Below, in pieces: positions 6,108 to 41,899 of a stretch of 46,572 nt of DNA. The position numbers and the translations under genes were made by a program. Origin of the DNA: a virus; the IMG/VR virus record IMGVR_UViG_3300031857_000346, positions 1-46,572 of that record. One strand, written 5' to 3'. Below the pieces are notes generated by a model. The model saw only the letters and a program-made list of their open reading frames with translations, made no database searches and was not told the DNA's origin. Within the stretch, counting starts at the first letter, position 1. Each line of letters opens with the position of its first letter.

Positions 6108-6110
6108 GTT

Positions 6111-8069
6111 TTATATAATTTGCCAGTTAGTGCCGTCTGAAATTAAAGTGAAAGCTGTATTTGCTACGCTAGTAGTTATTGTTAGTGAGCCATCTATTGT
6201 TTGAGAAGATGTAGTGTCAATTGTTAAAGTTCCTGATGTTACTTTAATGTAATATGTATTAGTATTTCCAACCGCAGTTGGCAAAGTGAAAGTTAAAGTT
6301 GCTGTACAAAAGTAATAATAATCTGTATTACCGGTAGCGCCTCCAGTTGTATTTATGGCTATGTTATTAATAGACTTTGCGTAGCCAGTTGGCAATGTAA
6401 TTGTTCCAGCAGCTATAAGTCCTATTGAAGACATTGCATTGTAAAAACCCTGTACTGTTGTGACCGCCGTTGGTTGAACAACAGGTGCAGCATTCCAAAA
6501 AGATAATTTATGCGCTGCACTATCCAATATTTTTATTGAAGGGTCTGTTCCGGCGCATGAAATTGTTGTAACTCCTGTAATGCTTACTATTGATCTAAAA
6601 TAATTACTCGCATCATATCCAACTCTTAGTTGCTCAGTTGTTTTAATTATATTTAACCTTGCCTGTGGAGTTCCAACACCAACACCAACATCTCCTGTTG
6701 ATTTTATAACCAACCCTGAGCCACCAGATGTTGGATTTAAAGTTATATCAGTAGAACCCGGTCTTCCATTTATATTAATATTATCACCACCCGACCAAGT
6801 AAATAAATCTCTATACGTTCCGGAGCTATCTAATCCTTGAATAACCCTTGCATTAGGGATCCTTATATTTCCGTTGTTTAAAAATCTGATTATTTCAATT
6901 GCCCCATTATTGCCTCCAAGAAATAAGTGTGCGGCATCGGTTGCTGTTGGGTTTCCAGTAGTTGATTTGTAACTTATACCATTTACAGATGTACCAACTA
7001 AACTTGGTGTGTTGGTTACAGTTGTTGATGTTAGACTTGTTGCTATTGTAAGAGAACCAGCTATATAAGAATTATCAGAAGCACCAGCGCTATATAGTGC
7101 AAAGTTTGAAGATCCAACCCCAGCCTGAGCTGAAATATATACACCGTGATTTGTTGTAATAGTTCCACTATTAGACGGAGTTTCTATAAAAACACCAGCA
7201 TTAAACGTCAAAGTTCCAGTAGTATCATTTTCTGTTTTAAAATAACCACCATAAACATTAGTTATGTTTCCAGTACTTCTATTAGCTACTATATTATAAG
7301 AGCCAATAGCTCTTGTGATTAAACCACTTCCGTAGTTTTGAATATATCCATAAGTCCCAACTGCAAAACCTAATGCTCCTGAGTTTGTTGCAGAAATATA
7401 TGTTTCTCCTAATATACCGCCAATTCTATACGCCGAGTTATTAGCAATTGAATTAACCGTGTAAGTAGACCTTATGTTATACTGATTACCAGTCGGTACT
7501 GTAATTGTGCTTAAAAAGTAATTAGGCTCACCGCTCGCAGGCGTTCCACTAGATGTAAATAAACTAAAATTATTTACTGTTAATTTTTTTGTAAATATAT
7601 TATCGTTTGGCGTTTGTGTAAACAACCCCGTATCTATTCCATCGTAAGCAGTGTGTAAAATAGTTGAGCCTGAATATTTTATCGTGCTTTCATAAATTCC
7701 AGCATCTAAACTACCAAAGGTTAAATCACCTGTTCCAGTTACTAAATTATTTCCTACAAGTGTAGAACCAGCCGTTAATACTTGTTGAAGGGTTGGAGTT
7801 CCAGCGCTACCAACCGGTTGCCAAGTTCCATCGTCTCTTAAAAACTGACCCGTAGGCGCCGTTTTTTTTATAAAAGATACATTAACAATTCCACTAGCAG
7901 AGATCTTCATATAGCCGTTAGCTACATCTGCGTCGTCAGTGCTATTCACAAAAGAATCAATAACATTATTCTCAAAATCACGAATGTTCTGAGCAGTGGT
8001 AGCATTATTACCAGTTATAACTTTATTCCCAAGCAACGTAACTAACGCTGATCTACTAATAGCTGTCAT
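6111..8069 (-). CDS. probable tail fibre / receptor-binding protein
   Basis: A 652-residue protein. The N-terminal 110 residues are helical and look like a virion-attachment part (NATTAQNIRDFENNVIDSF, then FLRDDGTWQPVG, a phrase common in phage fibres). A long Thr/Ser/Gly-rich beta region follows, with repeats resembling trimeric fibre shafts, ending in a C-terminal beta domain (TFTLPTAVGNTNTYYIK through TLISDGTNWQII). No peptidase S74 chaperone domain is present. The start overlaps the stop of the tail-terminator candidate. As the largest fibre-like protein it is the best candidate for host recognition. Confidence 0.65.
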   Translation of the reverse strand: MTAISRSALVTLLGNKVITGNNATTAQNIRDFENNVIDSFVNSTDDADVANGYMKISASGIVNVSFIKKTAPTGQFLRDDGTWQPVGSAGTPTLQQVLTAGSTLVGNNLVTGTGDLTFGSLDAGIYESTIKYSGSTILHTAYDGIDTGLFTQTPNDNIFTKKLTVNNFSLFTSSGTPASGEPNYFLSTITVPTGNQYNIRSTYTVNSIANNSAYRIGGILGETYISATNSGALGFAVGTYGYIQNYGSGLITRAIGSYNIVANRSTGNITNVYGGYFKTENDTTGTLTFNAGVFIETPSNSGTITTNHGVYISAQAGVGSSNFALYSAGASDNSYIAGSLTIATSLTSTTVTNTPSLVGTSVNGISYKSTTGNPTATDAAHLFLGGNNGAIEIIRFLNNGNIRIPNARVIQGLDSSGTYRDLFTWSGGDNININGRPGSTDITLNPTSGGSGLVIKSTGDVGVGVGTPQARLNIIKTTEQLRVGYDASNYFRSIVSITGVTTISCAGTDPSIKILDSAAHKLSFWNAAPVVQPTAVTTVQGFYNAMSSIGLIAAGTITLPTGYAKSINNIAINTTGGATGNTDYYYFCTATLTFTLPTAVGNTNTYYIKVTSGTLTIDTTSSQTIDGSLTITTSVANTAFTLISDGTNWQII

Positions 8070-11570: not shown

Positions 11571-11576
11571 TTGTTT

Positions 11577-11646
11577 GTAAAAATACAACAATACAAAAAA
11601 AACAAAGTTAAAAATTACCCACTTACCGGAATTTATTTTATATTTG
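11577..11646. promoter_or_regulatory. 70-bp bidirectional promoter element, copy 1
   Basis: This segment matches 25351-25420 at 69 of 70 positions; the only difference is A at 11591 versus C at 25365. Rightward, TATATTTG (11639-11646) lies 4 nt before the ATG of the RHH gene and has no -33 TTTG, but TTACC occurs twice (11615 and 11623) at an 8-nt repeat spacing. Leftward, a TATTTTTAC-like -7 with TTTG 17 nt upstream can be read towards the protease gene. The direct repeat is a plausible regulator site. Confidence 0.75.
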
Positions 11647-11650
11647 CAGC

Positions 11651-11851
11651 ATGGTCGAGAGAAAAACAAGAAACCAACCTGATTATGATATTAGAATCAC
11701 TAACAAGAGTGAAGATCTTTTAAACCAAATAAAGGCTATTTCAAAAAACACCGGCGAATCAATGAGCACGCTGCTTAGGCCTGTAATAAGAGAATGGGTT
11801 AAAAGTTATCCTGCCGATTACAAGATAATGCCTGAAGAAAATAAAAAATAA
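11651..11851 (+). CDS. ribbon-helix-helix (CopG/Arc-like) DNA-binding protein
   Basis: A 66-residue basic protein with a beta strand (YDIRITNK) and two helices (SEDLLNQIKAISKNTG and SMSTLLRPVIREWVKSYP), the layout of the MetJ/Arc/CopG fold, which works as a dimer on short operators. It is the only + strand gene in the head and tail block and lies between the portal and protease genes. It is transcribed from copy 1 of the 70-bp element, so it could regulate itself and, through copy 2, the tail sheath and glycosylation genes. The -7 box ends 4 nt before its ATG, which suggests a leaderless mRNA. Confidence 0.7.
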   Translation: MVERKTRNQPDYDIRITNKSEDLLNQIKAISKNTGESMSTLLRPVIREWVKSYPADYKIMPEENKK

Positions 11852-23801: not shown

Positions 23802-25331
23802 TTAGTTTATTGAACCGAAATTAAAACCCATCACAGCAGTTGTAGCAGATATACGCCCAACACCACTACGCTTAGCACTGAATACAGTATCAAAACGATT
23901 TGGATTTGTTGAATTTAAAGAAACACTTAAAGAGGAAATACTAAAAGCAGTATCAACTATTAAAGCGCGAGTAGTAAGATCAGAAAACATGTTATTTAAT
24001 TTTTGTTTCCACATTTTAGGCTTAACGATGTTCTGAGAAGAAACACTGTCTTCGTCTTTTGCTAAAACTTTTCCAATAACATTCTCTTGCTCTAATAAGA
24101 AATAAGTATAACGAATATTCCAATCAATTAGAATATCTCTAGTGTAAGCGAATTGAGGTGGTATCTCTCCAATAGGATGGTAGGTGGTAACTGAATCTTT
24201 TACGATGTATGTTCCGCTAACAAGGTCAACTGTTGAGCAACCTTTTTTCACAAATAAATCTCTGTTGTCATAACTAGCCATTGAACCAAGAGTTAACGGC
24301 GAAGGCATGTCAGGATATTTGTCATTTAAAATATCTAACTCAGGAGAGTTTTGAGCTTTTTTAGCAACCATAAATGCATGGTTTGCAGCAGCTTCCATTG
24401 CAAATCCCGGAGAATTTGGCGCCGGAGATAAAACAATAGTACAATCATCAAGACGGGCGTCAGATATAGAACTTGGATCGTCTAAAACAGTTCCAGTGAA
24501 TGCCAAAGTAGGCTTCATAACTATACCTTGGTATCTTCCTGTAGGGTTTGTATTATCTGGACGTCCGTTGAATGCTTCTAAGGCAGACATAACCGCTGAA
24601 ACAGCTCCATAACTATTAATTGTAATAGTATTCCATTCTGTACCATACAAGCCTAAACTTGTTGTAACAGCATTAGTTGGAGTACCAGAACCATTTTGAA
24701 TAGTAGCAACGTTGTAAGATAAACCAACAGCCTGATTGTTTGTATTAACCGAAACGGTCATGCCGTCAGCAGTAGCACCTTTCCATTTAGTTGTTAACAC
24801 ACTTACATAAGTATTTGTAGTAACAGTCGCTGGACAGCCAATAACTGCAGCTAAAACGTTTGCTATTTTAGCACTGATTTGTACTAAAGTATCACCAGTT
24901 ACAATAGGAATATCATAACTTTGAGAGTCTACATTTGTACGACCACCAATAGTAATAGTATGGGTAGCATTTCCAGTAGCAATACCAACTGGCTGAATCG
25001 TCATTACTTTAGCTGTAGCACCAACAGCTTCCGCTTGCGGGTAAAAAGTTACAGGAATGCCATCTAAACCGCCACCGGCTAAAGGAAATAATATTCTCGC
25101 TATCATATAAGCAGGAGAACCGTAACCAAACTTTTGTCCAACTTGTTGAGCAGAAGTAGGTATAAAAATAGGGTCAGAAACAACAGCAGCTTGGTTTGCG
25201 CTGTTAGCTTCACATAGTACAGCAATTTTCATTGGCAAATTAGGAGATGTTTCTTGAAAACTACCTTTTGCTATTAAATACCCGACAACTGCGGATTTTC
25301 TTGCTGAACCTACTGCGTTTGATACTGACAT
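23802..25331 (-). CDS. contractile tail sheath protein
   Basis: A 509-residue protein of the Phage_sheath family. Conserved parts include the opening MSVSNAVGSARKSAVVGYL, PTSAQQVGQKFGYGSPAYM followed by ARILFPLAGGGLDGIPV, the central domain with PDNTNPTGRYQGIVMKPTL, and the C-terminal arm FAYTRDILIDWNIRYTYFLL. It identifies the virion as a myovirus. It opens the leftward tail transcription unit, its ATG lying 20 nt from the second copy of the 70-bp promoter element. It is the most abundant tail protein, and this promoter match with the capsid protease would coordinate head and tail supply. Confidence 0.88.
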   Translation of the reverse strand: MSVSNAVGSARKSAVVGYLIAKGSFQETSPNLPMKIAVLCEANSANQAAVVSDPIFIPTSAQQVGQKFGYGSPAYMIARILFPLAGGGLDGIPVTFYPQAEAVGATAKVMTIQPVGIATGNATHTITIGGRTNVDSQSYDIPIVTGDTLVQISAKIANVLAAVIGCPATVTTNTYVSVLTTKWKGATADGMTVSVNTNNQAVGLSYNVATIQNGSGTPTNAVTTSLGLYGTEWNTITINSYGAVSAVMSALEAFNGRPDNTNPTGRYQGIVMKPTLAFTGTVLDDPSSISDARLDDCTIVLSPAPNSPGFAMEAAANHAFMVAKKAQNSPELDILNDKYPDMPSPLTLGSMASYDNRDLFVKKGCSTVDLVSGTYIVKDSVTTYHPIGEIPPQFAYTRDILIDWNIRYTYFLLEQENVIGKVLAKDEDSVSSQNIVKPKMWKQKLNNMFSDLTTRALIVDTAFSISSLSVSLNSTNPNRFDTVFSAKRSGVGRISATTAVMGFNFGSIN

Positions 25332-25350
25332 CTTTGAAGTGTTATTTTTG

Positions 25351-25420
25351 GTAAAAATACAACACTACAAAAAAAACAAAGTTAAAAATTACCCACTTAC
25401 CGGAATTTATTTTATATTTG
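25351..25420. promoter_or_regulatory. 70-bp bidirectional promoter element, copy 2
   Basis: Nearly identical (69/70) to 11577-11646. Here the leftward side faces the tail sheath gene and the rightward -7 TATATTTG (25413-25420) lies 5 nt (TGCCC) before the ATG of the first glycosylation-cassette gene at 25426. The TTACCCAC/TTACCGGA direct repeat is conserved. Sequence outside the 70 bp does not match copy 1, so the shared segment has sharp ends. Confidence 0.75.
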
Positions 25421-25425
25421 TGCCC

Positions 25426-26118
25426 ATGAACAAATTAAAAGTTTTTCAAATATATTTTAATGAAGCACAACTACCATTAAACTTTATTCCTTATTATAAT
25501 GAAAAATGTTCTCCCTATTTTGAAAACAAAGTTATTGTTGATCTAATCAAAAAAAATCAGCACAAAGGCTGTACTCATTTTGGTGTATTAAGCCACAAAT
25601 TTGCTGAAAAAATAAAAGAAAGAATGAGCTCAAACTGGGACTCTTTACCTGAATTAAAAAACCACCATCGGTTCCTAATGAACGCCGATGAGATAGAAAA
25701 AGCTTTAGCTTTATTCGATCCGCCAGTTTTAGCTTTAATGCAACACCCGGCGCATGATCCAGTTTCTTTTGGCGGAAGGTTTCACCAAAAATTACCTGAT
25801 TTTTTTAAAGAGGTTACAAAGAAAATAGGCGCCGAATGGAAGCCGGAAGTTTTTGACCGTGTTTATTATTCAAACTATTTTATAGCAAAGCCAGCAATAT
25901 ATGCAGACTACGTTAACACAATGCTGGCTCCAGCTATTCAAGTCATGGATGACATGCCTGATCTTTGGCAAGACAGCGGTTATCCAAAAAAATTACCTGA
26001 AAACTTATCAAAAGAATGGGGTGTTAATTACTACCCATACCATACCTTTATATTAGAAAGATTATTTAGTTATTATTGCAACATAAACAAAAACAAAATA
26101 TGGAAAAAGCAGAATTAG
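25426..26118 (+). CDS. first gene of sugar cassette, hypothetical GT-associated protein
   Basis: A 230-residue soluble protein with no signal peptide. Phrases such as PYYNEKCSPYFENKVIVDLI, HFGVLSHKFAEKIKERM and YYSNYFIAKPAIYADYVN are like those of nucleotide-sugar transferase relatives found beside polysaccharide genes, with a DMPDLWQDSGY motif near the end. I cannot name a fold with confidence. Translation is placed at the ATG at 25426, 5 nt after the -7 box; an in-frame extension of 29 codons upstream would cover the promoter. It begins the + strand cassette. Confidence 0.5.
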   Translation: MNKLKVFQIYFNEAQLPLNFIPYYNEKCSPYFENKVIVDLIKKNQHKGCTHFGVLSHKFAEKIKERMSSNWDSLPELKNHHRFLMNADEIEKALALFDPPVLALMQHPAHDPVSFGGRFHQKLPDFFKEVTKKIGAEWKPEVFDRVYYSNYFIAKPAIYADYVNTMLAPAIQVMDDMPDLWQDSGYPKKLPENLSKEWGVNYYPYHTFILERLFSYYCNINKNKIWKKQN

Positions 26119-26333
26119 AAGCCGCTCTTCGTTTAATTTACGATAGCTGGATAGTGAGATACGGCACGCCGCAGGAAACAATGGCTAACGGTATGGCTAC
26201 AGATATGAATGCCTACTTTGATAGTATAAATTATAATTTGGTTCTTGGAACTTGTTTTTCTTTACAACAGGTCTTGGATCAGTTATCTGTAGTAGGAATA
26301 ACCGGAATAGACAGACCTGCAGATGGTGCTTAG
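26100..26333 (+). CDS. hypothetical small protein in sugar cassette
   Basis: A 77-residue acidic protein (MEKAELEAALRLIYDSWIV, then QETMANGMATDMNAYFDSIN). No domain is visible. The start codon lies inside the preceding gene by 19 nt and its end overlaps the next gene by 11 nt, so it is tightly coupled within the cassette. A TTG at 26076 would add 8 residues, but the ATG at 26100 is preferred. Confidence 0.5.
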   Translation: MEKAELEAALRLIYDSWIVRYGTPQETMANGMATDMNAYFDSINYNLVLGTCFSLQQVLDQLSVVGITGIDRPADGA

Positions 26334-26994
26334 TTTTAGTTTAATTCATCCTTCAAGGAGTAGGCCCGAAAAAGCTAGAGAGATTTATAATTACTGGATG
26401 AGCAAAGCTTCCGGTGAAAATAAAATAGAACATATTCTTTCTTTAGATTTTAGTGATCCGCTAAACGAGCACTATGGAATGGTTGACGGAAAGTATATAC
26501 CATTTGGAGACAACTCTAAGTCAATAATTGACCATAATAGTTGTGTAGTTGAGGCAACAAATCAAGCTGCTAAAATGGCAACTGGCGACGTGCTTATCTA
26601 TTTAAGCGACGATTTCAAATGTCCAGACAATTGGGATAGACTTATTGCAGAACGAATGCTTATAGGTCACCCAACTTTGCTAAAAGTGAATGACTGTTTG
26701 CAGCAATTTGAAGTCGCAGTGTTAACTATACCTATAATGAATAGATCGTTATACGAAAAGCTTGGATATTTTTGGCACCCATCTTACAGATCAATGTTTG
26801 TAGACGAAGACCTCTACTGGACTTGTAAAAATAATATTTGGATGGTATCAGCGCCTGAATTACAATTTCCTCACGAACACTGCTCAATAGGGAAAGCTGA
26901 ACGAGACGAGACTTATATCCGCTCAGAAGCTAATTGGGACCACGGCAAGGCTATTTTTGCAGAACGTAAAGCGCTAAATTTTCCTTTAAAATGA
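26323..26994 (+). CDS. GT-A family glycosyltransferase-like protein
   Basis: A 223-residue protein with the features of inverting GT2-like (GT-A fold) enzymes. The N-terminal strand and loop read FSLIHPSRSRPEKAREIYNY, and the metal/nucleotide-sugar binding region is AKMATGDVLIYLSDDFKCPD, which carries the Asp-Asp after a strand. The C-terminal region includes SMFVDEDLYWTC, a second acidic patch. Such enzymes move a sugar from a nucleotide donor to an acceptor. It is short for the family (usually 250-300 residues). The donor and acceptor cannot be told. It overlaps the neighbours by 11 and 4 nt. Confidence 0.65.
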   Translation: MVLSFSLIHPSRSRPEKAREIYNYWMSKASGENKIEHILSLDFSDPLNEHYGMVDGKYIPFGDNSKSIIDHNSCVVEATNQAAKMATGDVLIYLSDDFKCPDNWDRLIAERMLIGHPTLLKVNDCLQQFEVAVLTIPIMNRSLYEKLGYFWHPSYRSMFVDEDLYWTCKNNIWMVSAPELQFPHEHCSIGKAERDETYIRSEANWDHGKAIFAERKALNFPLK

Positions 26995-27557
26995 TTTTAT
27001 CAATATTAATTCCGAGCCTAGAAAGCAGGAAAGAGTTTTTGAACCAAATGCTTTTTAATTTGCATACGCAAATTACCGAATTAAGCGCATGGGATAAGAT
27101 AGAAGTATTGACGGACGAACGTTCTCATTTATCAACTGGAGTGAAAAGAAACTCGTTATTGAATAGAGCGGAAGGAAAGCATTCTTGGTTTGTAGATGAT
27201 GATGATGAAATAATAAAATCAGCATTGTCTTTAATATTAAACGGGCTAAACTCTAACCCTGACGTTATTGGTATAAACGGATGGATGACCACTGACGATG
27301 AGAACAGAGTGGACTGGGAAATGAAGTTAGAAAATCCTTATTGTGCTACAACACGAGACGGAAAAGAATTTTATTTAAGATTTCCTAACCACATTGCGGT
27401 TATGAGAACAGAGATTGCTAAACAGGTCAAATTTCCTGATCTTACAATGGGTGAAGATTACGCTTGGGCAAAAGAGATTCACGACAGAAAGCTTTTAAAA
27501 ACAGAGGTTATTATTGAAGAACCAATATATCACTATAAGTTTAGAAGCAAAAAATGA
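26991..27557 (+). CDS. GT2-like glycosyltransferase
   Basis: A 188-residue protein with a clear GT2 start (ILSILIPSLESRKEFLNQML), then VLTDERSHLSTGVKRNSLLN and the metal-binding run WFVDDDDEIIKSALSLI. Later parts include DVIGINGWMTTDDENRV and a catalytic-loop-like MGEDYAWAKEIHDR, where E-D-x-x-W is the usual GT2 catalytic region. The protein lacks a membrane segment, so it would act on a soluble acceptor or at the membrane face. It is coupled to both neighbours by 4-nt overlaps. Confidence 0.72.
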   Translation: MILSILIPSLESRKEFLNQMLFNLHTQITELSAWDKIEVLTDERSHLSTGVKRNSLLNRAEGKHSWFVDDDDEIIKSALSLILNGLNSNPDVIGINGWMTTDDENRVDWEMKLENPYCATTRDGKEFYLRFPNHIAVMRTEIAKQVKFPDLTMGEDYAWAKEIHDRKLLKTEVIIEEPIYHYKFRSKK

Positions 27558-28231
27558 CCATTAAAAATTACTCAAAACATATATACTATAAATTAAAAAT
27601 TATCATGGGAAACTACTCACAAGGCGAAGAGCAAAAGCATATTGAAATGTTTTTTGGAGACTTCAAAGGAACAGTTCTTGACATCGGAGCAAACGATGGA
27701 AAAACATTTAGCAACTCTTTGGCTTTAATTGAAAACGGATGGAATGCTGTTTTATTAGAGCCGGCACAAATAGCTTTTAATAAGCTGGAAAGATTGCACG
27801 AAAATAATCCTAAAGTAAGTTGTTATAAAATAGCTATAGGCAACCAGCACGGTAAAACAAAATTAAAAGTTTCTGGCGCTCACCTGCCTGACGGTTCAGA
27901 TGTAGCATTATTATCTTCGCTTAAAGAAGATGAGACTACTAGATGGAGAGACGCTGGTGTCCAATTTCACGAAGAGGAAATTATAGTAACAACTTTCTCT
28001 CATTTTAAAAAATTAAGTGGAGATCCAGCTTTTGATTTTATCACAATCGACTGCGAAGGATTGGACGTTGATGTATTAAAACAAATTGATCTTACAAACA
28101 CAAAACTTATCTGCATCGAATGGAACTCTAAACCTGAAGCAAAAGCGGAGATATTAGAATATTGTGCTAAATTTGGCATGACTAAAACAATTTATGAATC
28201 AGGAGAAAATTTATTAATATGCAGACAGTAG
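27554..28231 (+). CDS. FkbM-family methyltransferase
   Basis: A 225-residue protein with SAM-binding motif I (TVLDIGANDGKTFSNSLAL), then AVLLEPAQIAFNKLERL (acidic end of strand 2) and VSCYKIAIGNQHGKTKLKV. The core HFKKLSGDPAFDFITIDCEG followed by LDVDVLKQIDL is the FkbM signature. FkbM enzymes O-methylate sugars or lipids, and they are common beside glycosyltransferases, where methylation caps a glycan. The first 17 residues before MGNYSQGEEQ may be an upstream extension. Coupled to its neighbours by overlaps. Confidence 0.85.
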   Translation: MTIKNYSKHIYYKLKIIMGNYSQGEEQKHIEMFFGDFKGTVLDIGANDGKTFSNSLALIENGWNAVLLEPAQIAFNKLERLHENNPKVSCYKIAIGNQHGKTKLKVSGAHLPDGSDVALLSSLKEDETTRWRDAGVQFHEEEIIVTTFSHFKKLSGDPAFDFITIDCEGLDVDVLKQIDLTNTKLICIEWNSKPEAKAEILEYCAKFGMTKTIYESGENLLICRQ

Positions 28232-28941
28232 TATCATTCGCCGATGGCGCCGGGCATTATGCAAAAGCATTAATGCGACAAGAATTAAGTTTATTACAAG
28301 TTGGATTTATTCCTGCTGAAGGCAATAAGTTTAAAGGCATTAATGACTACGGTCATATAAACTCACCACAGCACAAGGGGGCGCCTGACTCTATACCATA
28401 CGCTTTTAAAGCGCTTTCAATTAAAAAAGCAGCGGAAGAACAAGACTGGAAAGGCCTCTTATTGTGGTGCGACTCGGTTGTGTATGCCACAAAATCAATT
28501 CAGCCTATTTTTGACCACATAAAAAAGCATGGTTATTTATTTTTTGATAATATTGGTTTCTCTATCGGAGACTATACCAGCGACGTTTGCTTGAGGCAAT
28601 TTAATATGTCTCGCGAAGAAGCTTTTGATAGCAAAATGATTATGGCTTGCGTGATGGGATTCGATTTAGAAAACCCGTCAACAAAAGAATTTTTAGATAA
28701 ATATATCGCAGCAGCAACAGACGGTCATTCTTATCCGGGATCTTGGACGAATGAAAATCTACAAGTATCAAACGATATGCGCTGTAAAGGTCACAGACAC
28801 GACCAGTCAGTAGCGAGTATATTGATAAAACAAATGGGGTTGAGTATTACTCGCGCTCAAGATACATTTTTTGCGTATGCAAGCCATAAAGGGTTAGTGC
28901 CAATAGCAGATAGCGTTGGTTTATGGTCGGAGGGAATATAG
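28219..28941 (+). CDS. putative glycosyltransferase (GT8/DxD-like)
   Basis: A 240-residue soluble protein. It begins TVVSFADGAGHYAKALMRQE, and the central part GLLLWCDSVVYATKSIQPIF resembles the strand-D-x-D region of retaining GT-A transferases. The end has HRHDQSVASILIKQMGL, where the H-D-Q-S pattern recurs in GT8-like and related Bacteroidota sugar transferases. The last codons overlap the HNH endonuclease frame if the upstream ATG of that gene is used. The family assignment is by pattern only. Confidence 0.5.
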   Translation: MQTVVSFADGAGHYAKALMRQELSLLQVGFIPAEGNKFKGINDYGHINSPQHKGAPDSIPYAFKALSIKKAAEEQDWKGLLLWCDSVVYATKSIQPIFDHIKKHGYLFFDNIGFSIGDYTSDVCLRQFNMSREEAFDSKMIMACVMGFDLENPSTKEFLDKYIAAATDGHSYPGSWTNENLQVSNDMRCKGHRHDQSVASILIKQMGLSITRAQDTFFAYASHKGLVPIADSVGLWSEGI

Positions 28942-28943
28942 TC

Positions 28944-29291
28944 ATGGAGCAAGAAGTTTGGAAAACAATAATCGGATTTGAAAAAGCTAAGATTAGCAAT
29001 TTCGGAAATGTAATGGGCGCCCACGGAAAATTAAGAAAATTAAAAAACATTTACACCAACGGCAACAGAAACCTACAGCCTTATAAAAACGTAAGGTTAT
29101 CATTAAAGCATTCTGGTGAATACGTACATAGACTAGTCGCAAAACATTTTTTAGATAACCCAAATAATTACAAAGAAGTAAACCATATAGATAGAAACAA
29201 ACATAATAACCATGTATCTAATTTAGAATGGTGCGATAGACTTCACAATGTAAAACATCAAAGAGAAACTCAAAAATTAATTAACAATTAA
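28944..29291 (+). CDS. HNH homing endonuclease with NUMOD4
   Basis: A 115-residue protein (an earlier in-frame ATG at 28923 would add 7 residues). The N-terminal NUMOD4 module reads WKTIIGFEKAKISNFGNVM and the HNH_3 part reads RLVAKHFLDNPNNYKEVNHI followed by RNKHNNHVSNLEWCDR. This layout is typical of free-standing or intron-encoded nicking nucleases that cut and move themselves into intact alleles. It lies between two cassette genes with no similarity to its neighbours and is probably a later insertion. The downstream methyltransferase lacks an ATG, which may result from that insertion. Confidence 0.85.
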   Translation: MEQEVWKTIIGFEKAKISNFGNVMGAHGKLRKLKNIYTNGNRNLQPYKNVRLSLKHSGEYVHRLVAKHFLDNPNNYKEVNHIDRNKHNNHVSNLEWCDRLHNVKHQRETQKLINN

Positions 29292-29304
29292 AAAAATAGA
29301 AAAC

Positions 29305-29925
29305 TTGGGATATACACAATTTACAGTAGATCAATTAGAAGAAATTATCTCTAATCATTCGCCAAAAACAATTTTAGATTTTGGTGCACAAAACATGTAT
29401 AATCAACCGGAACTACCAGCTCCTTACGCTAAAGAGTGGTATGAGAACGAAAAGAAGATGAAATATGTTTCTATCGACATTAACAACGAGCACGGTGCAA
29501 TTGCTGTGGATTTAAGTAAACCATTATTAGATCAAACAAAATTAGACGAGCGCCTAATAGATCAATATGATTTAGTAGTAGATGCCGGCACAACTGAACA
29601 TGTCGGAGTTGATGGCAAGCATGACACTGAAGCTTTCTACAACGCGTGGAAAACTAAATACGACTTATGCAAAAACGGAGGTATTATATACTCCGAAAAT
29701 CCAAAAACAGGATCTTGGCCCTGTCACGGATTTAATTATCATACATTAGAGTTTTATCACCAATTAGGAATAGCGCTCGGTTGCCAAATACTAAGTTTAG
29801 GTGAGCACGCCGCATGCCATAATATCATTGATGGATGGAATATTTATTGCTCGTTTATAAAACCAACAGCTACTCCGTTTATCTCACTAGAAGAGTTTAA
29901 AAAGTTAACTTATAAGTTAAGTTAA
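29305..29925 (+). CDS. class I SAM-dependent methyltransferase-like protein (TTG start)
   Basis: A 206-residue protein. Motif I is TILDFGAQNMYNQ; then come KYVSIDINNEHGAIAVDL (strand-2 acidic residue) and DLVVDAGTTEHVGVDG as motif III/IV, followed by a second half with a CHGFNYHTLEFYHQLGIALG strand-helix. It probably methylates a sugar or protein in the cassette. No ATG precedes motif I; the TTG at 29305, 14 nt after the HNH stop, is the best start, so the original 5' end may have been lost or altered when the nuclease gene inserted. Confidence 0.6.
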   Translation: MGYTQFTVDQLEEIISNHSPKTILDFGAQNMYNQPELPAPYAKEWYENEKKMKYVSIDINNEHGAIAVDLSKPLLDQTKLDERLIDQYDLVVDAGTTEHVGVDGKHDTEAFYNAWKTKYDLCKNGGIIYSENPKTGSWPCHGFNYHTLEFYHQLGIALGCQILSLGEHAACHNIIDGWNIYCSFIKPTATPFISLEEFKKLTYKLS

Positions 29926-30662
29926 TGAAATTAGCAGCAATATATAACGTTTGGGACGGTGTAGAGTTATTGAAACACTCAATAGCATCAATAAAGCAAG
30001 ACGTTGACTTAATAATAATTGTTTACCAAGACATCAGTAATTTTGGAGAAGAATTCAATCCATTACCTGAAATAAAAAAAGCTGTTTATGGGATTCCTCA
30101 TGTTTTACACAAATATGTACCGACAGTTGGAAATGGATTTGTAAATGAAACAACCAAGCGCCAAATAGGAATAGAAATAGCTTATAATTATAATTGTACA
30201 CATTTTTTAAATTTAGATTGCGATGAAATTTATGAAAACTTTGCTAAGGCAAAAAATTTATACATTAAATCAGGAGCACAAGGATCTGTCTGTAAACTAT
30301 TCACATACTTTAAGTTTCCAACTCTCAGATTTGAAACTGAAGATGGCTATTTTGTGCCTTTCATTCACGAACTCAAAAGCACCACTACTGCTGGCAGCAG
30401 CGTGGGTTATCCTTTTTATTGCGACCCTACTAGAAGCATTAATTGCAACGATGTAGTCTGTTTGCCGGTCCACATGCATCACTTCTCTTGGGTTAGACAA
30501 AACATTGAACGTAAATGCAGAAACTCAAGCGCAAAAGCAAACATCGAAAATGGAACAATGCTACAGAGTTATTATGATCCAAATTGTGGACCAGGTTTCT
30601 ATGTAAAAGACGCTGATAAATATTTAATCGAAGTGCCAAACCAATTCAACATTAATCTGTAA
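29925..30662 (+). CDS. GT2/GT-A-like glycosyltransferase
   Basis: A 245-residue protein with the GT-A start AAIYNVWDGVELLKHSIASI and DLIIIVYQDISNFGEEF. The D-x-D region is CTHFLNLDCDEIYENFAKA (Asp-Cys-Asp), followed by a long acceptor-side part containing MHHFSWVRQNIERKCRNSSA. No membrane segment is visible. It starts at the last A of the previous gene stop. It is the fourth transferase-like gene of the cassette. Confidence 0.65.
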   Translation: MKLAAIYNVWDGVELLKHSIASIKQDVDLIIIVYQDISNFGEEFNPLPEIKKAVYGIPHVLHKYVPTVGNGFVNETTKRQIGIEIAYNYNCTHFLNLDCDEIYENFAKAKNLYIKSGAQGSVCKLFTYFKFPTLRFETEDGYFVPFIHELKSTTTAGSSVGYPFYCDPTRSINCNDVVCLPVHMHHFSWVRQNIERKCRNSSAKANIENGTMLQSYYDPNCGPGFYVKDADKYLIEVPNQFNINL

Positions 30663-30663
30663 T

Positions 30664-31044
30664 ATGGAAATAGTAAAAGACAAAGTTAAGAAACACAAGA
30701 TCACAACCGAAGTGTATAAACGTATCAGTGAAATTGCAGCCGGAATGGTTCCATGCTCAAAAGTAATTAACGGCAAGCGTCAAATGAAGCGCGTAGTGAA
30801 GAAATGCACATGGGAAACAATGTCGCCACAGAATCGCGAGCATATCGAAAAGCACAATCCAAAAGATGCTAATAAAAAAGGACCATACAAAGAAATTTGG
30901 ATGGAACCGGTTTTAATAAACCATAAAGAGTGTTTGCTTGCTGAATATAAAATGCATGGAGAGGATGGAATAACTTTTTATGTTGAAACTATAAACAAAG
31001 CCATCGCCAATGAAAATAGCAGTACTGATTCCGGACAGGAGTGA
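30664..31044 (+). CDS. hypothetical basic protein in sugar cassette
   Basis: A 126-residue basic protein (KDKVKKHKITTEVYKRISEI, then SKVINGKRQMKRVVKKCTWE) without recognised domains, signal or membrane segment. Its C-terminal third is more mixed (LINHKECLLAEYKMHGEDG). It overlaps the last cassette gene by 35 nt, which shows tight coupling. It might be a nucleic-acid or acceptor-binding accessory protein, but nothing in the sequence decides this. Confidence 0.5.
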   Translation: MEIVKDKVKKHKITTEVYKRISEIAAGMVPCSKVINGKRQMKRVVKKCTWETMSPQNREHIEKHNPKDANKKGPYKEIWMEPVLINHKECLLAEYKMHGEDGITFYVETINKAIANENSSTDSGQE

Positions 31045-31699
31045 TAGGCCAGACTTTTTAGCCAACACTTTACGATTAATAGAAAGTCAGACCGTTAAAC
31101 CGGACCATGTAGAGGTAGTAAACTTTCCAGCAACGTCTGAAGCTTGCGATATAACCGTCCGTTACCGTTATGGATATGATAAACTTTCTAAGATGGGCTT
31201 TGATGTCATTTTTTTTATGGAAAATGATGACTGGTACACCAATAACTACATAGAAACAATGCTTAATGCTTGGAAAGAAGCTGGTGAGCCGGATATTTTT
31301 GGAACAGATTATACTTTTTATTATCACATTCGCCAACAAGGACGCTTCACTATGGAGCACTTCAACCGAAGCAGCGCAATGTCTACTTTAATAAAACCGA
31401 ATTTAATATTCGAATGGCCGCAAGATAACGACCCTTACACGGACGTTTGGCTATACACTAAGTTGAAGTATGGTGTATTTCATCCAGATCCTAAAAAACC
31501 AATTTGTCTTGGCATCAAACACGGCGTTGGAAAGTGTGGTGGAGAATGCCACACCACTTATTTACGTTTATTCAGAGAAGGCAGTGGCGCTTTCGTTGAC
31601 CCCAACATGGTTTGGTTAAAATCTATAGTTGATGAGGAAAGTTTTAAATTTTACCATTCAATATCAAGTCAGCAAAACGAGGCCAACTCGCCAACTTAA
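31010..31699 (+). CDS. GT-A family glycosyltransferase, end of cassette
   Basis: A 229-residue protein with the typical start KIAVLIPDRSDRPDFLANTL and the acidic donor site GFDVIFFMENDDWYTNNYIE, plus aromatic acceptor residues (DYTFYYHIRQQGRF). A later run, YTDVWLYTKLKYGVF, resembles the catalytic base region. The coding region runs 56 bp past the 3' end of the terminase gene on the other strand, so the two genes overlap convergently. It ends the cassette; no clear terminator was seen. Confidence 0.65.
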   Translation: MKIAVLIPDRSDRPDFLANTLRLIESQTVKPDHVEVVNFPATSEACDITVRYRYGYDKLSKMGFDVIFFMENDDWYTNNYIETMLNAWKEAGEPDIFGTDYTFYYHIRQQGRFTMEHFNRSSAMSTLIKPNLIFEWPQDNDPYTDVWLYTKLKYGVFHPDPKKPICLGIKHGVGKCGGECHTTYLRLFREGSGAFVDPNMVWLKSIVDEESFKFYHSISSQQNEANSPT

Positions 31700-33686
31700 C
31701 ATCTAACTTCATTTCTTTAAAAAATCTATAGACATAAATGTCTCTAACTACTGTATTGTAGATGTTGACGTCCAAATGGTGATTCTGAGACGAAGATGTT
31801 TTCTTTGCCCAAATGAAATTACCTTTTTTATCAACCACTCGATGTTCTGCAGCATAATGAGAAAAATAATTTTCCAAACCATATTTTCCGTCTCTCGGTT
31901 CAGGGAAATTTAAAAATCCTTGCGGTTGTTCTTGCTTCGGCTCAGCATTTCTGTCCCACTTAAAATTAATACGAGCCATCAACCGGTCCTTTAAATTATT
32001 AACGCGCACCATGTATAATTCGTTTGGACGACTTGCGCTATTCTTAAAAGAAGCTTGCTCTATATGCATTGGAATATACTTATCTTCCTTGTCACCCTTC
32101 AATCCAAAAATAAGATGGTTGCTTTTTTCTATATAATTAAAAACCTGGTCCTCAGCGAAACCAGTATCTATTCCGCTTGCAGTAATTCTCATCGTGGTGC
32201 CATCCTCTAAAGTATAACTCGCGCTAAGTATTTCTTCAAATTTTTTCCAGACATTATTAGGTTTAGACACATCATAACTAAACATTTCTCTGGTTATGTT
32301 TTCCTTTTTCTTCCAACTTTGATTTGCAATAAATGTACCTAATGATCCGTGAGTGATACTATAAGTACTGCCAGTTTCGCTATGTGCAATAACCTCATAA
32401 TCCAAGCGGACGTCATCATAATCAGAATTAACTCCAGCAACTCGACCACCTAAATCGGCAGCACAAGTAAGCATCACTATTTTACCATTACCATCTTTAA
32501 TACTTTGAGCTTCAGGAACAGTTCCTATTTGATATGATCTTATATTTAATTGTAATTGATCTACCTTAACAGAGGTTCCCGGTTCTTCATAAGTTTCTCC
32601 GAGACAAACGTTCACAAATGTTTTATAAAGCGCCTCGTTTCTAGGTTGATTAGAGGGATTGGCTTCTAAAAAGTCATTAACATAATGTTCCCAATCGTAC
32701 ATTCCTAAAGGTGCATACAAACTGTTTATATGATAACTGTAATATCCAAGTTTACTAGGCTTAGCCGTTGGTTTCCAAAAACCCTTGTTTAACAACTCAT
32801 GCTTGTTTTTGTCGGTAAAAAAACCACCGCATTCCTGACAAGTGTACCCAACGGACTCTGATACAACGGTACCGCTTTCATCTACATCCCAAGTTATACC
32901 GGCGGATCTGTTATCGGTATCCTTAACCAGCGTCGACCAAACCAATTCTATAAACTCATTGCAACAAGGGCACGGTATCATAAATTTTCTTTGATCGCCA
33001 AGTAAATATGCTGGTTTTATATTACTAGTTTCTTCTCTTTCTGGAGTTGATATATAAAATATTTTACATGTATCAGCATAAGCAGCAAAGCGCTGCTCTA
33101 ATAATTTACGAGTACTTCCTGATTCTTTACTTTCCCCTTTAACACTCTCAAAATCGTCAAAAAAACCGGTTTGAAGGTCAATTTGCCTTAACCCTTTATG
33201 GTTATTTGCACTAATAATACTTACATATCCTTGCGGAAATTCCTTTTTAAAGTTTGTATCACCTGATTTGTTTGCGCGATTCCTTTGGACCTGTGGTTTT
33301 ATATATGGCCTCAACCCACAACTATCAATCATTAAATCTAATTTCTCCATTGACTTTTCAATCAGATCAGGCGCACCAACTGTTATTAAAGTATTGCCCG
33401 GATTATTTTTAATTATCCAACCTACTCCCGGATAAATTACACCGGCAGAGCCACCAACTTGAGCCCCTTTCATAATTGCAACTGTTCGGGCCGGATGCGA
33501 TTGAGAAAGACAATCAATGATCTCGCGCATGTAAGGCGTCCTGCTGTATTTAAACGGTCCAGGGAACGGCTTTTGCATGATCATATTTTGCTCAGTCCAA
33601 TCAGACGGCTTAATGTCGGAAATGTTAACGCTCCCGCTTTCAAGCAATGCTTTTAATTGATCTGAATATAACTTACTCTCGCTCAC
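31644..33686 (-). CDS. terminase large subunit (lambda gpA family)
   Basis: A 680-residue packaging motor and nuclease. The N-terminal ATPase has the A-like motif MKGAQVGGSAG (residues 72-82), then NTLITVGAPDLIEKSMEKL and TGFFDDFESVKGESKESGS with the acidic Walker B region. Two CxxC pairs (CPCCNEF near residue 242 and CQECGGF) are typical of gpA-type terminases. The C-terminal nuclease domain carries LTCAADLGGRVAGVNSDYDD and later Asp-rich elements (ITASGIDTGFAEDQVF). The length is normal. It is separated from the portal gene by about 18 kb, with the cassette and tail module in between. Confidence 0.9.
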   Translation of the reverse strand: MSESKLYSDQLKALLESGSVNISDIKPSDWTEQNMIMQKPFPGPFKYSRTPYMREIIDCLSQSHPARTVAIMKGAQVGGSAGVIYPGVGWIIKNNPGNTLITVGAPDLIEKSMEKLDLMIDSCGLRPYIKPQVQRNRANKSGDTNFKKEFPQGYVSIISANNHKGLRQIDLQTGFFDDFESVKGESKESGSTRKLLEQRFAAYADTCKIFYISTPEREETSNIKPAYLLGDQRKFMIPCPCCNEFIELVWSTLVKDTDNRSAGITWDVDESGTVVSESVGYTCQECGGFFTDKNKHELLNKGFWKPTAKPSKLGYYSYHINSLYAPLGMYDWEHYVNDFLEANPSNQPRNEALYKTFVNVCLGETYEEPGTSVKVDQLQLNIRSYQIGTVPEAQSIKDGNGKIVMLTCAADLGGRVAGVNSDYDDVRLDYEVIAHSETGSTYSITHGSLGTFIANQSWKKKENITREMFSYDVSKPNNVWKKFEEILSASYTLEDGTTMRITASGIDTGFAEDQVFNYIEKSNHLIFGLKGDKEDKYIPMHIEQASFKNSASRPNELYMVRVNNLKDRLMARINFKWDRNAEPKQEQPQGFLNFPEPRDGKYGLENYFSHYAAEHRVVDKKGNFIWAKKTSSSQNHHLDVNIYNTVVRDIYVYRFFKEMKLDVKLASWPRFADLILNGKI

Positions 33687-38785: not shown

Positions 38786-40273
38786 TTACGCTGTTAAAAA
38801 TTCTATTTCATTTATTTTTTTATCGGCAAAAGTTACGCCGCCTTCTCTGAGTTCAAATTCTAGCGATTCAAGTTGGCGTAAAATCCACTCATCACGATAT
38901 TTTTTAATTCGGGCATATTCACCAATTGCCATGGCTCCACGGCTTCTCATTATTCGCCAAACGTGTTTAGCGTTAATTTGCTTCACGTTCTCAAGTTCGA
39001 TTAATTCGGGTATTGTGCATTGAGATAAATATTTACCGGGTATGCTGGTGCGGATATTGTTTGTAAGCTCAACCAACACACCGCGTTTAAGTTCCGCCTC
39101 GGTTACTAGAAATATATAACCGCAATAAGGACATTCTTTTGTTTGCATTGATAACATAGCTGTACAAGCCTTACATGATTTTACGGGAGCCGCTCCAAGC
39201 GTGTTTCGCTTCTTTTTTGGGGGTTCTAATTTCCAGTTTCTGTTTTCTGCCCATAAGCCATGTCTAGTAAAATTACCACCATAATCCAACACCAAAAATT
39301 CTTTTTTTGTTGGCGTAACTCTTGAGCCTCTACCGCAACCTTGAAGCCATACAGTAATAGAGTTAGTTGCCCTGTTGAATACAACACATTCTATGTTTGG
39401 GTCGTCGTAACCAGCAATAAATATATTGGCATTAACTAAAACAGGAAAAGCTCCAGAACGGTGTTCTTTCAACAAATAATCTCTTTTTGTTTCATCCGTG
39501 TCACTGCTTATAGCAAACGCTTTTATTCCAGCGGCAGTAAACGCTTTGGCTGTTTCTTCTGCGTGAGAAATATTTACACAAAACACTATAGTACGTTTGT
39601 CCTTTGCTTTTTCTAGCCAACCATCTATTACACCATCATAAATTTTTGTATTTGAAAAATGTTTATAATTAGATTGGTCTGTAAATTCACCAGAGTTATC
39701 TGTTTGTAAATCAGAGAAGTCATCTTGTGATTCGTAACCACGGCAATTTGATAAATAACCAAGCTGTATCAACTCTGGAATTTCAATTGAAGAAACCATG
39801 TGAGTGTAATATTTGAATAAATTTTTTCCAACAGGTGTTCCCGTGCAACCTAAAGCTTTAGTGTCTGGATATAATTCAAAAACCTTATTGTAAGCGTTTT
39901 TATGCGCTTCATCCACAATTATTAAATCAAATTTAACTTTATCGAATAAATCAGATCGACGCTTAAACGTTTCAACCATACCAAAAAAAAGCATAGCTTG
40001 TTCCGGAATGTTTGAACTTTTACTTTTAGCATCTATTCTATAAACTGCAATTTCGTGAGTTGAAACAGCTTTAATGTTTTGTTCAAAAATTTCTGATCTA
40101 TCGGACAAGCACAAAACTTTTTTTCCTTTTGATGCGGCAGACGCGCAAATTTGAGAAAACGTAAGGCTTTTTCCTGCGCCAGTTGGCATAACAAGTAGTA
40201 TTCTCTTATGAGTTCTGTAAGCCTCTCTTACTTCGTTAATTGCTTTTTCTTGATATGGTCTTAATTGAATCAT
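38786..40273 (-). CDS. SF2 DEAH-box helicase
   Basis: A 495-residue helicase of the type III restriction/UvsW-like group. Motif I is LLVMPTGAGKSLTFSQI (residues 27-43), motif II FDLIIVDEAHKN (DEAH at 121-124), motif III CTGTPVG, and motif VI LQGCGRGSR, which contains the arginine finger region. The C-terminal zinc finger reads CKACTAMLSMQTKECPYC. There is no nuclease domain, so it would remodel replication forks or recombination intermediates. It follows the GIY-YIG gene with a 4-nt overlap and precedes the zinc-ribbon gene. Confidence 0.88.
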   Translation of the reverse strand: MIQLRPYQEKAINEVREAYRTHKRILLVMPTGAGKSLTFSQICASAASKGKKVLCLSDRSEIFEQNIKAVSTHEIAVYRIDAKSKSSNIPEQAMLFFGMVETFKRRSDLFDKVKFDLIIVDEAHKNAYNKVFELYPDTKALGCTGTPVGKNLFKYYTHMVSSIEIPELIQLGYLSNCRGYESQDDFSDLQTDNSGEFTDQSNYKHFSNTKIYDGVIDGWLEKAKDKRTIVFCVNISHAEETAKAFTAAGIKAFAISSDTDETKRDYLLKEHRSGAFPVLVNANIFIAGYDDPNIECVVFNRATNSITVWLQGCGRGSRVTPTKKEFLVLDYGGNFTRHGLWAENRNWKLEPPKKKRNTLGAAPVKSCKACTAMLSMQTKECPYCGYIFLVTEAELKRGVLVELTNNIRTSIPGKYLSQCTIPELIELENVKQINAKHVWRIMRSRGAMAIGEYARIKKYRDEWILRQLESLEFELREGGVTFADKKINEIEFLTA

Positions 40274-40980
40274 GCGTATATAAATGGGGTGTTATTAAAT
40301 GAGCGTTTATTTATTTTACCTCTAAGGGTACTTTCCTTGTAAACTGACGATTCAGAAGCTTCCCTTACGTTGCCGTAAAATATACCGTTCTCTGTGTTTA
40401 ATATTAAGAAGCCTTTGCCTAAATTGTAGGTTTTATTTAGTGCCGTCCTCTCTGAAGATAATTTCCTTCCCGTAAGTTTTTCTCTTATTTTTTGTTTTGT
40501 TTCTTCTGATAATTTGACCCCGTATCTCGGATTATTTTTACCAGTCGCTCGTTCTTTTATTTTTGCCGTAAACTCTATTGTATGCTTTTTGCCATAAAAA
40601 CCATTTTTAACGCCAGAGCAGTTTCGTTTTCTTACAAGCGCTTTTTCTGATATTATTTTCTTTGAAGCTTCGCTATGTTTAAAACCTCTCGAACCTTCCC
40701 CGCCAACAGTTAAATTCAAACCAATATCTTTATTACTAAAGCTCTCGTACTTATTAATATAAAAAACTTCCCTTTCACTTAATGCTTCTACATCGCAGTA
40801 TTCCAACACGTCAAATAAATGATTTTCAAAACCGTGTTTTATAAAAGAGTTTCTTAATTTGGTTTGACTTAAAATTTTCTGTTTTGATTTGTAATCTTTT
40901 ATACGATTAGGAATGTTAATAGATTGACCTATATAAACCCTTCCGCTTGGTGATGTGATTCTGTAAATACCAGATTTCAT
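40270..40980 (-). CDS. GIY-YIG homing endonuclease with NUMOD3 repeats
   Basis: A 236-residue protein. The GIY-YIG domain opens KSGIYRITSPSGRVYIGQSI (GIY then YIG), with SFIKHGFENHLFDVLEYCD and EREVFYINKYESF. Then three NUMOD3-like DNA-binding repeats follow (GFKHSEASKKIISEKA, GKKHTIEFTAKIKERATG, GVKLSEETKQKIREKLTG) and a C-terminal NUMOD1-like part. It lies between two short genes and overlaps the helicase start by 4 nt, so it is probably a self-inserted selfish nuclease gene. Confidence 0.9.
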   Translation of the reverse strand: MKSGIYRITSPSGRVYIGQSINIPNRIKDYKSKQKILSQTKLRNSFIKHGFENHLFDVLEYCDVEALSEREVFYINKYESFSNKDIGLNLTVGGEGSRGFKHSEASKKIISEKALVRKRNCSGVKNGFYGKKHTIEFTAKIKERATGKNNPRYGVKLSEETKQKIREKLTGRKLSSERTALNKTYNLGKGFLILNTENGIFYGNVREASESSVYKESTLRGKINKRSFNNTPFIYA

Positions 40981-41099: not shown

Positions 41100-41351
41100 C
41101 TAAATTAAATTAAACTTCTCTAAAAATTCTTCTGTGGTACAATTCAAATGGCACTTCTCATTAAAGCAAACAACCTTATCCTCGGTGTCCAAGACGCCCA
41201 TGTGATGCCCTTGGTCATTGCAAAAAACACATTTACCAAACCAATGAATACCAACTTTGTGTAGCGGAATTATCTCGTTTATTTTATCAATAGCGATCTG
41301 TTTTTTTAGTCGCTCTTGCTGTGTTTTAGAAAGGATAATTTCCCATGCCAT
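41100..41351 (-). CDS. primase-type (CHC2-like) zinc-finger protein
   Basis: An 83-residue protein with a zinc-finger pattern Cys41-x2-Cys44 (GKCVFCNDQGHH) and Cys62/Cys67 (VVCFNEKCHLN), plus the intervening MGVLDTEDKVV. The spacing is like the CHC2 zinc ribbon at the N-terminus of DnaG-type primases. The rest of a primase is absent, so it may be a stand-alone DNA-binding partner of the primase-helicase. It overlaps the HNH-like gene by 26 nt. Confidence 0.55.
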   Translation of the reverse strand: MAWEIILSKTQQERLKKQIAIDKINEIIPLHKVGIHWFGKCVFCNDQGHHMGVLDTEDKVVCFNEKCHLNCTTEEFLEKFNLI

Positions 41352-41745
41352 CGTCGAGGTTTAATTTTTTACGTGTCTTAAATTCACTTTTACCTTTTTC
41401 ATTTCGTGACCATTCAATATATTTTTTTACATTCGCTGAATTGGTTAACGCTTGAATGTTGCTGGCGAAATAACCATTTGTTTGATTCACGCGGTCAATG
41501 TGCAGGCTAGTTTTTCCGGTCCCTTTTTTATGCATGTATTCAGTCTTTACAGCGAAGGCTAAAAATTGTTTGAAGCTTAATCCAAATACAACACCACGGC
41601 GTTTGCAATTATTTCTTAACGTGACGTAGGCATACATTTCAGGGTTATTGGCTTTATAACGTGCTTGAGCGCATGAATAACAATAACTACCCCGCTTTGC
41701 TATTTTTTTGCAACTTTTCGTTGCGCAAGGTTTCAATGTGCTCAA
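41326..41745 (-). CDS. zinc-finger HNH-like nuclease (uncertain start)
   Basis: The product has a Cys-rich segment (KPCATKSCKKIAKRGSYCYS, with C-x4-C and C-x2-C) and an HNH-like end, LHIDRVNQTNGYFASNIQA followed by LTNSANVKKYIEW, which matches the DRxxxxxGYxxxNI phrase of phage HNH nucleases. The open frame continues upstream to an ATG at 41859, but that stretch coincides with the helix-turn-helix gene in another frame, so an internal TTG (41745, or 41736) is preferred. About 139 residues. Confidence 0.55.
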   Translation of the reverse strand: MSTLKPCATKSCKKIAKRGSYCYSCAQARYKANNPEMYAYVTLRNNCKRRGVVFGLSFKQFLAFAVKTEYMHKKGTGKTSLHIDRVNQTNGYFASNIQALTNSANVKKYIEWSRNEKGKSEFKTRKKLNLDDGMGNYPF

Positions 41746-41899
41746 AGTAATCTTCAATCGCTTGCACTGTTTTCCTGCTACCTCCGCCTGTTCTGATAGC
41801 TTCTCCAATTGTGTTAGTGGTAATTTTGGAGTGGTCAGCAATTTTTTTGATGTCGCCATGTTCGATCTTGTTTTTTGTTTTTTGTTTTAAGTGAGTCAT
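41687..41899 (-). CDS. helix-turn-helix DNA-binding protein
   Basis: A 70-residue basic protein with a helix-turn-helix (IKKIADHSKITTNTIGEAIR at about residues 18-37) of the type found in small phage regulators, then a helix (TVQAIEDYFEHIETLRNEK). Its codons look more protein-like than the overlapping frame of the HNH-like gene. It starts just before the gene at 41900 ends, so it is co-transcribed. It may regulate the early operon. Confidence 0.6.
   Translation of the reverse strand: MTHLKQKTKNKIEHGDIKKIADHSKITTNTIGEAIRTGGGSRKTVQAIEDYFEHIETLRNEKLQKNSKAG

Follow-up and report, generated by a model that had tools for sequence, protein, structure and literature searches.

A cassette rich in glycosyltransferases (GTs) occupies positions 25426–31699 of the virus record IMGVR_UViG_3300031857_000346, and comparison with related phages shows that the interval in which it lies, between the terminase and tail sheath genes, is a hotspot at which cassettes have repeatedly been gained, lost and inverted. 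The cassette probably serves to glycosylate virion proteins in the cytoplasm, the glycan being decorated with methyl, acetyl or amide groups. The DNA analysed (hereafter the window) is this single IMG/VR record of 46,572 bases, from a virus of Bacteroidota bacteria, and its structural genes (terminase, sheath, tube, tape measure, baseplate, hubs, portal, protease, decoration, capsid and amidase) lie on the minus strand. The cassette itself is on the plus strand, flanked by the minus-strand tail sheath gene as divergent neighbour (23802–25331; PHROG tail sheath phrog_165, expectation value (E) 4e-67) and the minus-strand terminase large subunit gene as convergent neighbour (31644–33686; PHROG TerL phrog_15, E 1.5e-131), in agreement with an earlier reading made from the sequence alone (the sequence-only reading), which had placed it antisense between terminase and tail genes; relatives carry either orientation. 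That reading had also described ten overlap-coupled plus-strand genes. The strand and the coupling stand, with overlaps of 1–43 nucleotides (nt) at eight of the ten junctions and spacings of 1 and 13 nt at the other two, but the count does not, since eleven open reading frames (ORFs) are present. At the far end, the 3′ end of the last cassette gene and the terminase 3′ end form a convergent 56-nt overlap (31644–31699); several antisense relatives show 15–34 nt tail-to-tail at this point.

The hotspot was mapped in 45 terminase relatives, nine genome-assembly loci (seven from named Bacteroidota) and further loci found via two cassette genes, E and F. Among 56 distinct phages with terminase–sheath synteny, 29 (including the window) carry the cassette in antisense, 11 carry it in sense and 16 have none; the interval is hence occupied in 40 of 56 sampled relatives, frequencies that are biased because two of the search queries were the cassette genes E and F. 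On the terminase tree, 14 changes account for all states, and the supported branches force at least 8–9 gains or losses, with at least two for the sense orientation. In view of this repeated gain, loss and inversion, the simple picture of a one-off insertion, which the sequence-only reading had adopted, was dropped. Sense cassettes directly follow the terminase gene, overlapping it in two cases (relatives L022, by 4 nt, and L026, by 37 nt). Whichever way the cassette points, it usually starts with F and finishes with E; that of the window, unusually, starts with gene A and finishes with F. Cassette intervals in this phage group measure 3–12 kb, with no fibre genes recognised in them, and most of the cassette-less gaps are shorter than 220 nt. 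As far as the cassette-less records extend, neither E nor F was found elsewhere in them, with positive controls matched for F; the one exception, in a whole bacterial assembly, is a weak match to F (E 4e-5). In some phages (L009, L012) small unrelated genes occupy the interval instead. A recent foreign origin of the cassette was also considered and dropped, as its GC content (0.361) leaves no compositional mark against that of the late genes (0.362).

The cassette encodes five GTs, possibly six, consistent with the four or five GT-A-like enzymes proposed earlier. Genes B (26323–26994) and C (26991–27557) encode GT2-like enzymes identified through PHROG families (phrog_14945, E 2e-14, and phrog_14775, E 1e-28, respectively), C being homologous to the N-terminal part of gp108 of mycobacteriophage Che8. 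Gene F (31010–31699), also GT2-like, was assigned through a profile match of its family to the solved GT 3bcv (E 1.2e-4). Against the Pfam GT2 family PF00535, B, C and F score 20.4, 23.2 and 15.1 bits, all under the gathering score of 23.3 (B and C slightly so). Genes D (28219–28941) and E (29925–30662) have no Pfam hit, and both are predicted to be GT-A enzymes by fold. The AlphaFold model of D, with a mean predicted local distance difference test (pLDDT) score of 95.9, lies nearest to the bacterial GT6 enzyme BoGT6a and to LARGE1 (Foldseek probability 1.00, E 1.5e-6 and template-modelling (TM) score 0.5–0.6 against solved GT-A enzymes). The model of E (pLDDT 96.7), the hallmark of the cassette with 89 distinct relatives, finds the peptide S-glycosyltransferases SunS/ThuS and SpsA as best matches (probability 1.00, E 2.6e-8, TM 0.5–0.6). 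Gene A (25426–26118, 230 amino acids (aa)), the possible sixth GT, belongs to a conserved cassette family (A6, 17 rows); its start at 25426 fits the 226–227 aa of its homologues, and it has no PDB or Pfam match.

The remaining ORFs include a candidate decorating enzyme, an FkbM-type methyltransferase (27554–28231; PF05050, Methyltransf_21, 54.5 bits against a gathering cut-off of 22.7), as previously proposed. The second methyltransferase of the sequence-only reading (29305–29925, family A7) keeps its motifs and is a probable class I enzyme, but no database match backs this identity. Two short ORFs are private or nearly so by comparison with relatives, one of 85 aa seen in this phage only (26076–26333) and one of 126 aa essentially confined to it (30664–31044). 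An HNH endonuclease of homing type with a NUMOD4-like motif (28923–29291; PF13392, E 1e-5; PF07463, E 0.003) completes the set. Homing-type HNH genes also lie inside the cassettes of L021 and L071/L202 and near that of L085, at differing positions, and might drive cassette exchange. In relatives, the cassettes encode hexapeptide acyltransferases, Asn-synthase amidotransferases, TylF and other methyltransferases, and PIG-L deacetylases, which points to glycan decoration. Membrane segments are absent: none of the 11 window proteins exceeds the threshold (maximum 19-mer hydropathy 0.35–1.11), and among 297 cassette-interval proteins of relatives, 283 have no segment and one has two. This absence argues against flippase, polymerase or oligosaccharyltransferase machinery, and for work in the cytoplasm.

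The cassette and the tail sheath gene diverge from a 76-nt repeat (copy 1, 25345–25420), whose second copy lies between a small plus-strand ORF and the minus-strand protease gene (copy 2, 11571–11646). The copies are 96% identical and stand upstream of sheath and protease, respectively, bearing out the earlier claim of a late element common to cassette and sheath. In copy 1 we find the boxes TATATTTG on the plus strand at 25413–25420 and TAACTTTG on the minus strand at 25384, and the core CCGGTAAGTGGG on the minus strand at 25403–25392; two copies of the core occurred in none of 100 shuffles. The plus side of both copies ends in TATATTTG, followed 4–5 nt on by an ATG, that of the first cassette gene at one site and that of a 66-aa ORF at the other. 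The nearest distinct relative, L003 (the layout is shown for L003/L212), has the same arrangement built on another element sequence, whose two copies there are again almost identical, and the start codons of its cassette and small ORF align exactly between them. Such pairs are phage-private, near-identical within a phage and different between phages, with or without a GT cassette (L003/L212, L213–L233). Of 23 records tested, two of which probably represent one phage, 19 have a repeat common to the regions upstream of sheath and protease that clearly exceeds the maximum obtained by shuffling. As these 19 include cassette-less phages, the element is primarily a feature of the late operons, with its opposite side apparently used by the antisense cassette. 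TAnnTTTG-like boxes are common by themselves (37 on the plus strand of the window) and the promoter cannot be fixed beyond them, so that the argument relies chiefly on the repeat and on the distances to the start codons. The repeat shared in some relatives resembles a hairpin with a T run, and repeat pairs may thus be of more than one kind. We infer that the 76-nt element is a bidirectional late promoter. It may also be an operator for the product of the 66-aa ORF (11651–11851, plus), a small antisense gene whose ribbon-helix-helix (RHH)-like protein of Arc/CopG type, with a weak PHROG Arc-like hit, is a candidate regulator. RHH matches are several and weak across 13 family members, none being above cut-off for the window protein; the gene is kept in most relatives, antisense between portal and protease.

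The same GT families also recur at other structural sites. An antisense cassette lies between portal and hub14 in L078/L174, L194 and L196; L100, L120, L126 and L131, whose lineage has a different portal family, carry a cassette between protease/capsid and portal, the portal of L120–L131 being assigned by position and by analogy to L100; and in L205 it lies between tape measure and protease. A recognised structural neighbour accompanies 65 of 89 distinct E proteins and 68 of 73 distinct F proteins, many of the others being on short contigs. A host origin of gene E was rejected, as a search of 396 Bacteroidota genomes gave only six matches, of which five are weak (best E 3e-9) and the strong one lies on a contig bearing phage terminase and sheath genes; E is essentially a phage family. 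The E protein of one relative finds distant homologues (27–29% identity) in 540-kb Prevotella Lak megaphages, e.g., MK250029.1, 265299–266048.

Three observations speak for virion proteins as the target: the same GT families recur amid the structural genes of other lineages, the cassette encodes no membrane proteins, and gene C is homologous to Che8 gp108 (phmmer E 4.5e-19; E 7e-45 by profile). Gene C is likewise homologous to LittleE gp15 and Forza gp93, both GTs encoded among capsid and tail genes. PMC12363180 reports that phage GTs glycosylate Che8 virions, and PMC12619734 that capsid and tail tube subunits of mycobacteriophages carry glycans at their C-termini. We propose that the cassette is an exchangeable late-gene module whose enzymes would work in the host cytoplasm and equip virion proteins of the phage itself with a short, decorated glycan. 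The bidirectional late element would drive both the cassette and the sheath operon, such that the enzymes would be made alongside virion proteins. The soluble GT-A enzymes (starting at 26323, 26991, 28219, 29925, 31010 and perhaps 25426) would then attach and extend a glycan, using host nucleotide sugars, on an exposed virion protein, which might be the decoration protein, capsid, sheath or a fibre. FkbM (27554), and perhaps the 29305 product, would methylate this glycan, where relatives would use acetyl-, amido- or deacetylase-type enzymes. As cassettes are replaced or inverted at one site, the coat would change like a serotype, and adsorption or shielding would be altered with it. In this model we infer the promoter activity, timing, glycan, acceptor and benefit of the cassette.

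Several observations weigh against this assignment of the target. In a search for the acceptor, neither the length nor the Ser/Thr content of tail proteins differed between phages with and without the cassette. Che8 gp109 and gp110, the latter a GT reported to be essential for capsid glycosylation, match no cassette family at E 0.01; a gp110 homologue is not strictly a defining trait, since different GTs serve in further phages of this type. The common late element tells when the enzymes act, not on what: the sequence-only reading had moved from its sharing with the sheath to virion-protein targets, and while the late-expression part of that argument is strengthened (the element is duplicated, start codons diverge at both sites, pairs are phage-private and sense cassettes follow terminase), the target is still suggested rather than given by it. 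Moreover, the GT-rich islands among structural genes of pelagimyophages are read as modifiers of the host O-chain (PMC7029224).

This last interpretation carries over to the window as a rival explanation, namely that the cassette remodels the surface glycans of the infected host, in the lipopolysaccharide (LPS) core or capsule, which would shut out superinfecting phages or keep progeny from sticking to debris. The mix of GT, acetyl and methyl genes does resemble LPS/O-antigen sets, the pelagimyophage island is similarly hypervariable, and soluble GTs can work on lipid-linked acceptors at the inner membrane. However, flippase, polymerase, ligase and other membrane proteins are absent from the cassette, and its apparent late co-expression with structural genes would leave little time for such remodelling; lysogenic conversion is unlikely here, since no tyrosine integrase was found in the window or in most relatives, being present in only a few cassette-bearing ones. 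We regard a host-surface role as unlikely. Quite improbable, to our judgement, is that the interval does no more than tolerate accessory genes that homing endonucleases spread, with GT sets acting on various unrelated targets and sharing no single function. The HNH genes in this cassette and in or near those of the relatives listed above would fit such a site, as would the frequent gain and loss and the unrelated small genes in some intervals, but the gene set is consistently glycan-building, bounded by the hallmark genes E and F, and is found again at other sites among structural genes.

Phage GTs with DNA as their substrate are well established (T4; Pyle 2024, cited in PMC12619734), and the GTs of the window could in principle glycosylate a hypermodified base in the phage genome. 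Yet an enzyme of the thymidylate-synthase family, which includes dCMP/dUMP hydroxymethylases, was detected in none of the 17 records of the group, while controls matched in 9 of 14; the Pfam scan gave no AGT or BGT match, and the cassette sits among structural genes. FkbM enzymes act on small molecules or sugars, which also speaks against DNA as the substrate. Modification of phage DNA is accordingly very improbable. Returning to virion-protein glycosylation, a wider proposal is possible but somewhat doubtful: a "virion serotype" system, in which Bacteroidota myophages carry an exchangeable, invertible glycan cassette at one fixed site, with a shared late operator pair tied to the small RHH regulator, and in which methylated, acetylated or amidated glycan coats could be swapped independently of the proteins that carry them.

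The sequence-only reading had not recognised the system from characterised Bacteroidota phages, which holds only in part, as the gene C family occurs in actinophage GT clusters. The mycobacteriophage clusters (Che8 gp108–110, LittleE gp15–21, Forza gp93–94) resemble the cassette in that one operon groups several GTs and a gene annotated as a methyltransferase, in sharing the gene C family, in encoding soluble enzymes with late or structural genes (among capsid and tail genes in LittleE and Forza) and, in Che8, in having an HNH endonuclease close by. Unlike them, the cassette has five to six GTs, many decorating enzymes in relatives, a fixed terminase–sheath hotspot used in both orientations and a shared late element; sequence homology is limited to gene C, and the Che8 cluster lies at the genome end. 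Gtr serotype-conversion cassettes of temperate phages are likewise small phage cassettes with glycosyltransferases. Gtr systems use multi-pass membrane proteins and a lipid carrier. Machinery of this Gtr/O-antigen type was ruled out, given that no multi-pass membrane flippase, GT or polymerase is present among the 11 cassette proteins. The host recognition cluster of pelagimyophages (PMC7029224) is also a hypervariable GT-rich island within a myophage structural region, but these are T4-like phages in which a 34–45 kb island with tail fibres lies between VrlC and gp14, in contrast to 3–12 kb between terminase and sheath here. The nearest isolates, Flavobacterium FCL-2 and Cellulophaga phiSM-type phages (terminase 38–40% and sheath 44% identical), have head genes after terminase and no GT gene annotated between terminase and sheath. 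No close isolate was matched by megablast, and D, E and F of the window matched nothing in phage records.

Both virion glycosylation by phages and a hypervariable, GT-rich island amid the structural genes of a myophage (PMC7029224) are already known. What appears new is the combination, in Bacteroidota myophages, of a fixed terminase–sheath hotspot used in both orientations, GT families recurring at other structural sites and a phage-private late element, for which the literature searched, itself only partial, yielded no published description. Virion glycosylation by phage-encoded enzymes is known mainly in actinophages, where it reportedly shields virions from antibodies. If our reading is true, environmental Bacteroidota phages possess a modular, hypervariable version of it; glycan coats would then be a broader and fast-evolving phage trait, which raises the question of their purpose outside animals. 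Cassette-plus, cassette-minus and inverted forms in otherwise alike phages make effects on adsorption, host range and virion chemistry directly testable.

Two large proteins of 618 and 652 aa are encoded on the minus strand after the capsid genes (4251–8069). Neither matches Pfam or PHROG or has a relative in the loci compared, and both are candidates for fibres as well as for the acceptor. The replication region encodes a GIY-YIG endonuclease with a NUMOD3 motif and an endonuclease VII-like protein (40270–40980 and 41326–41859, respectively).

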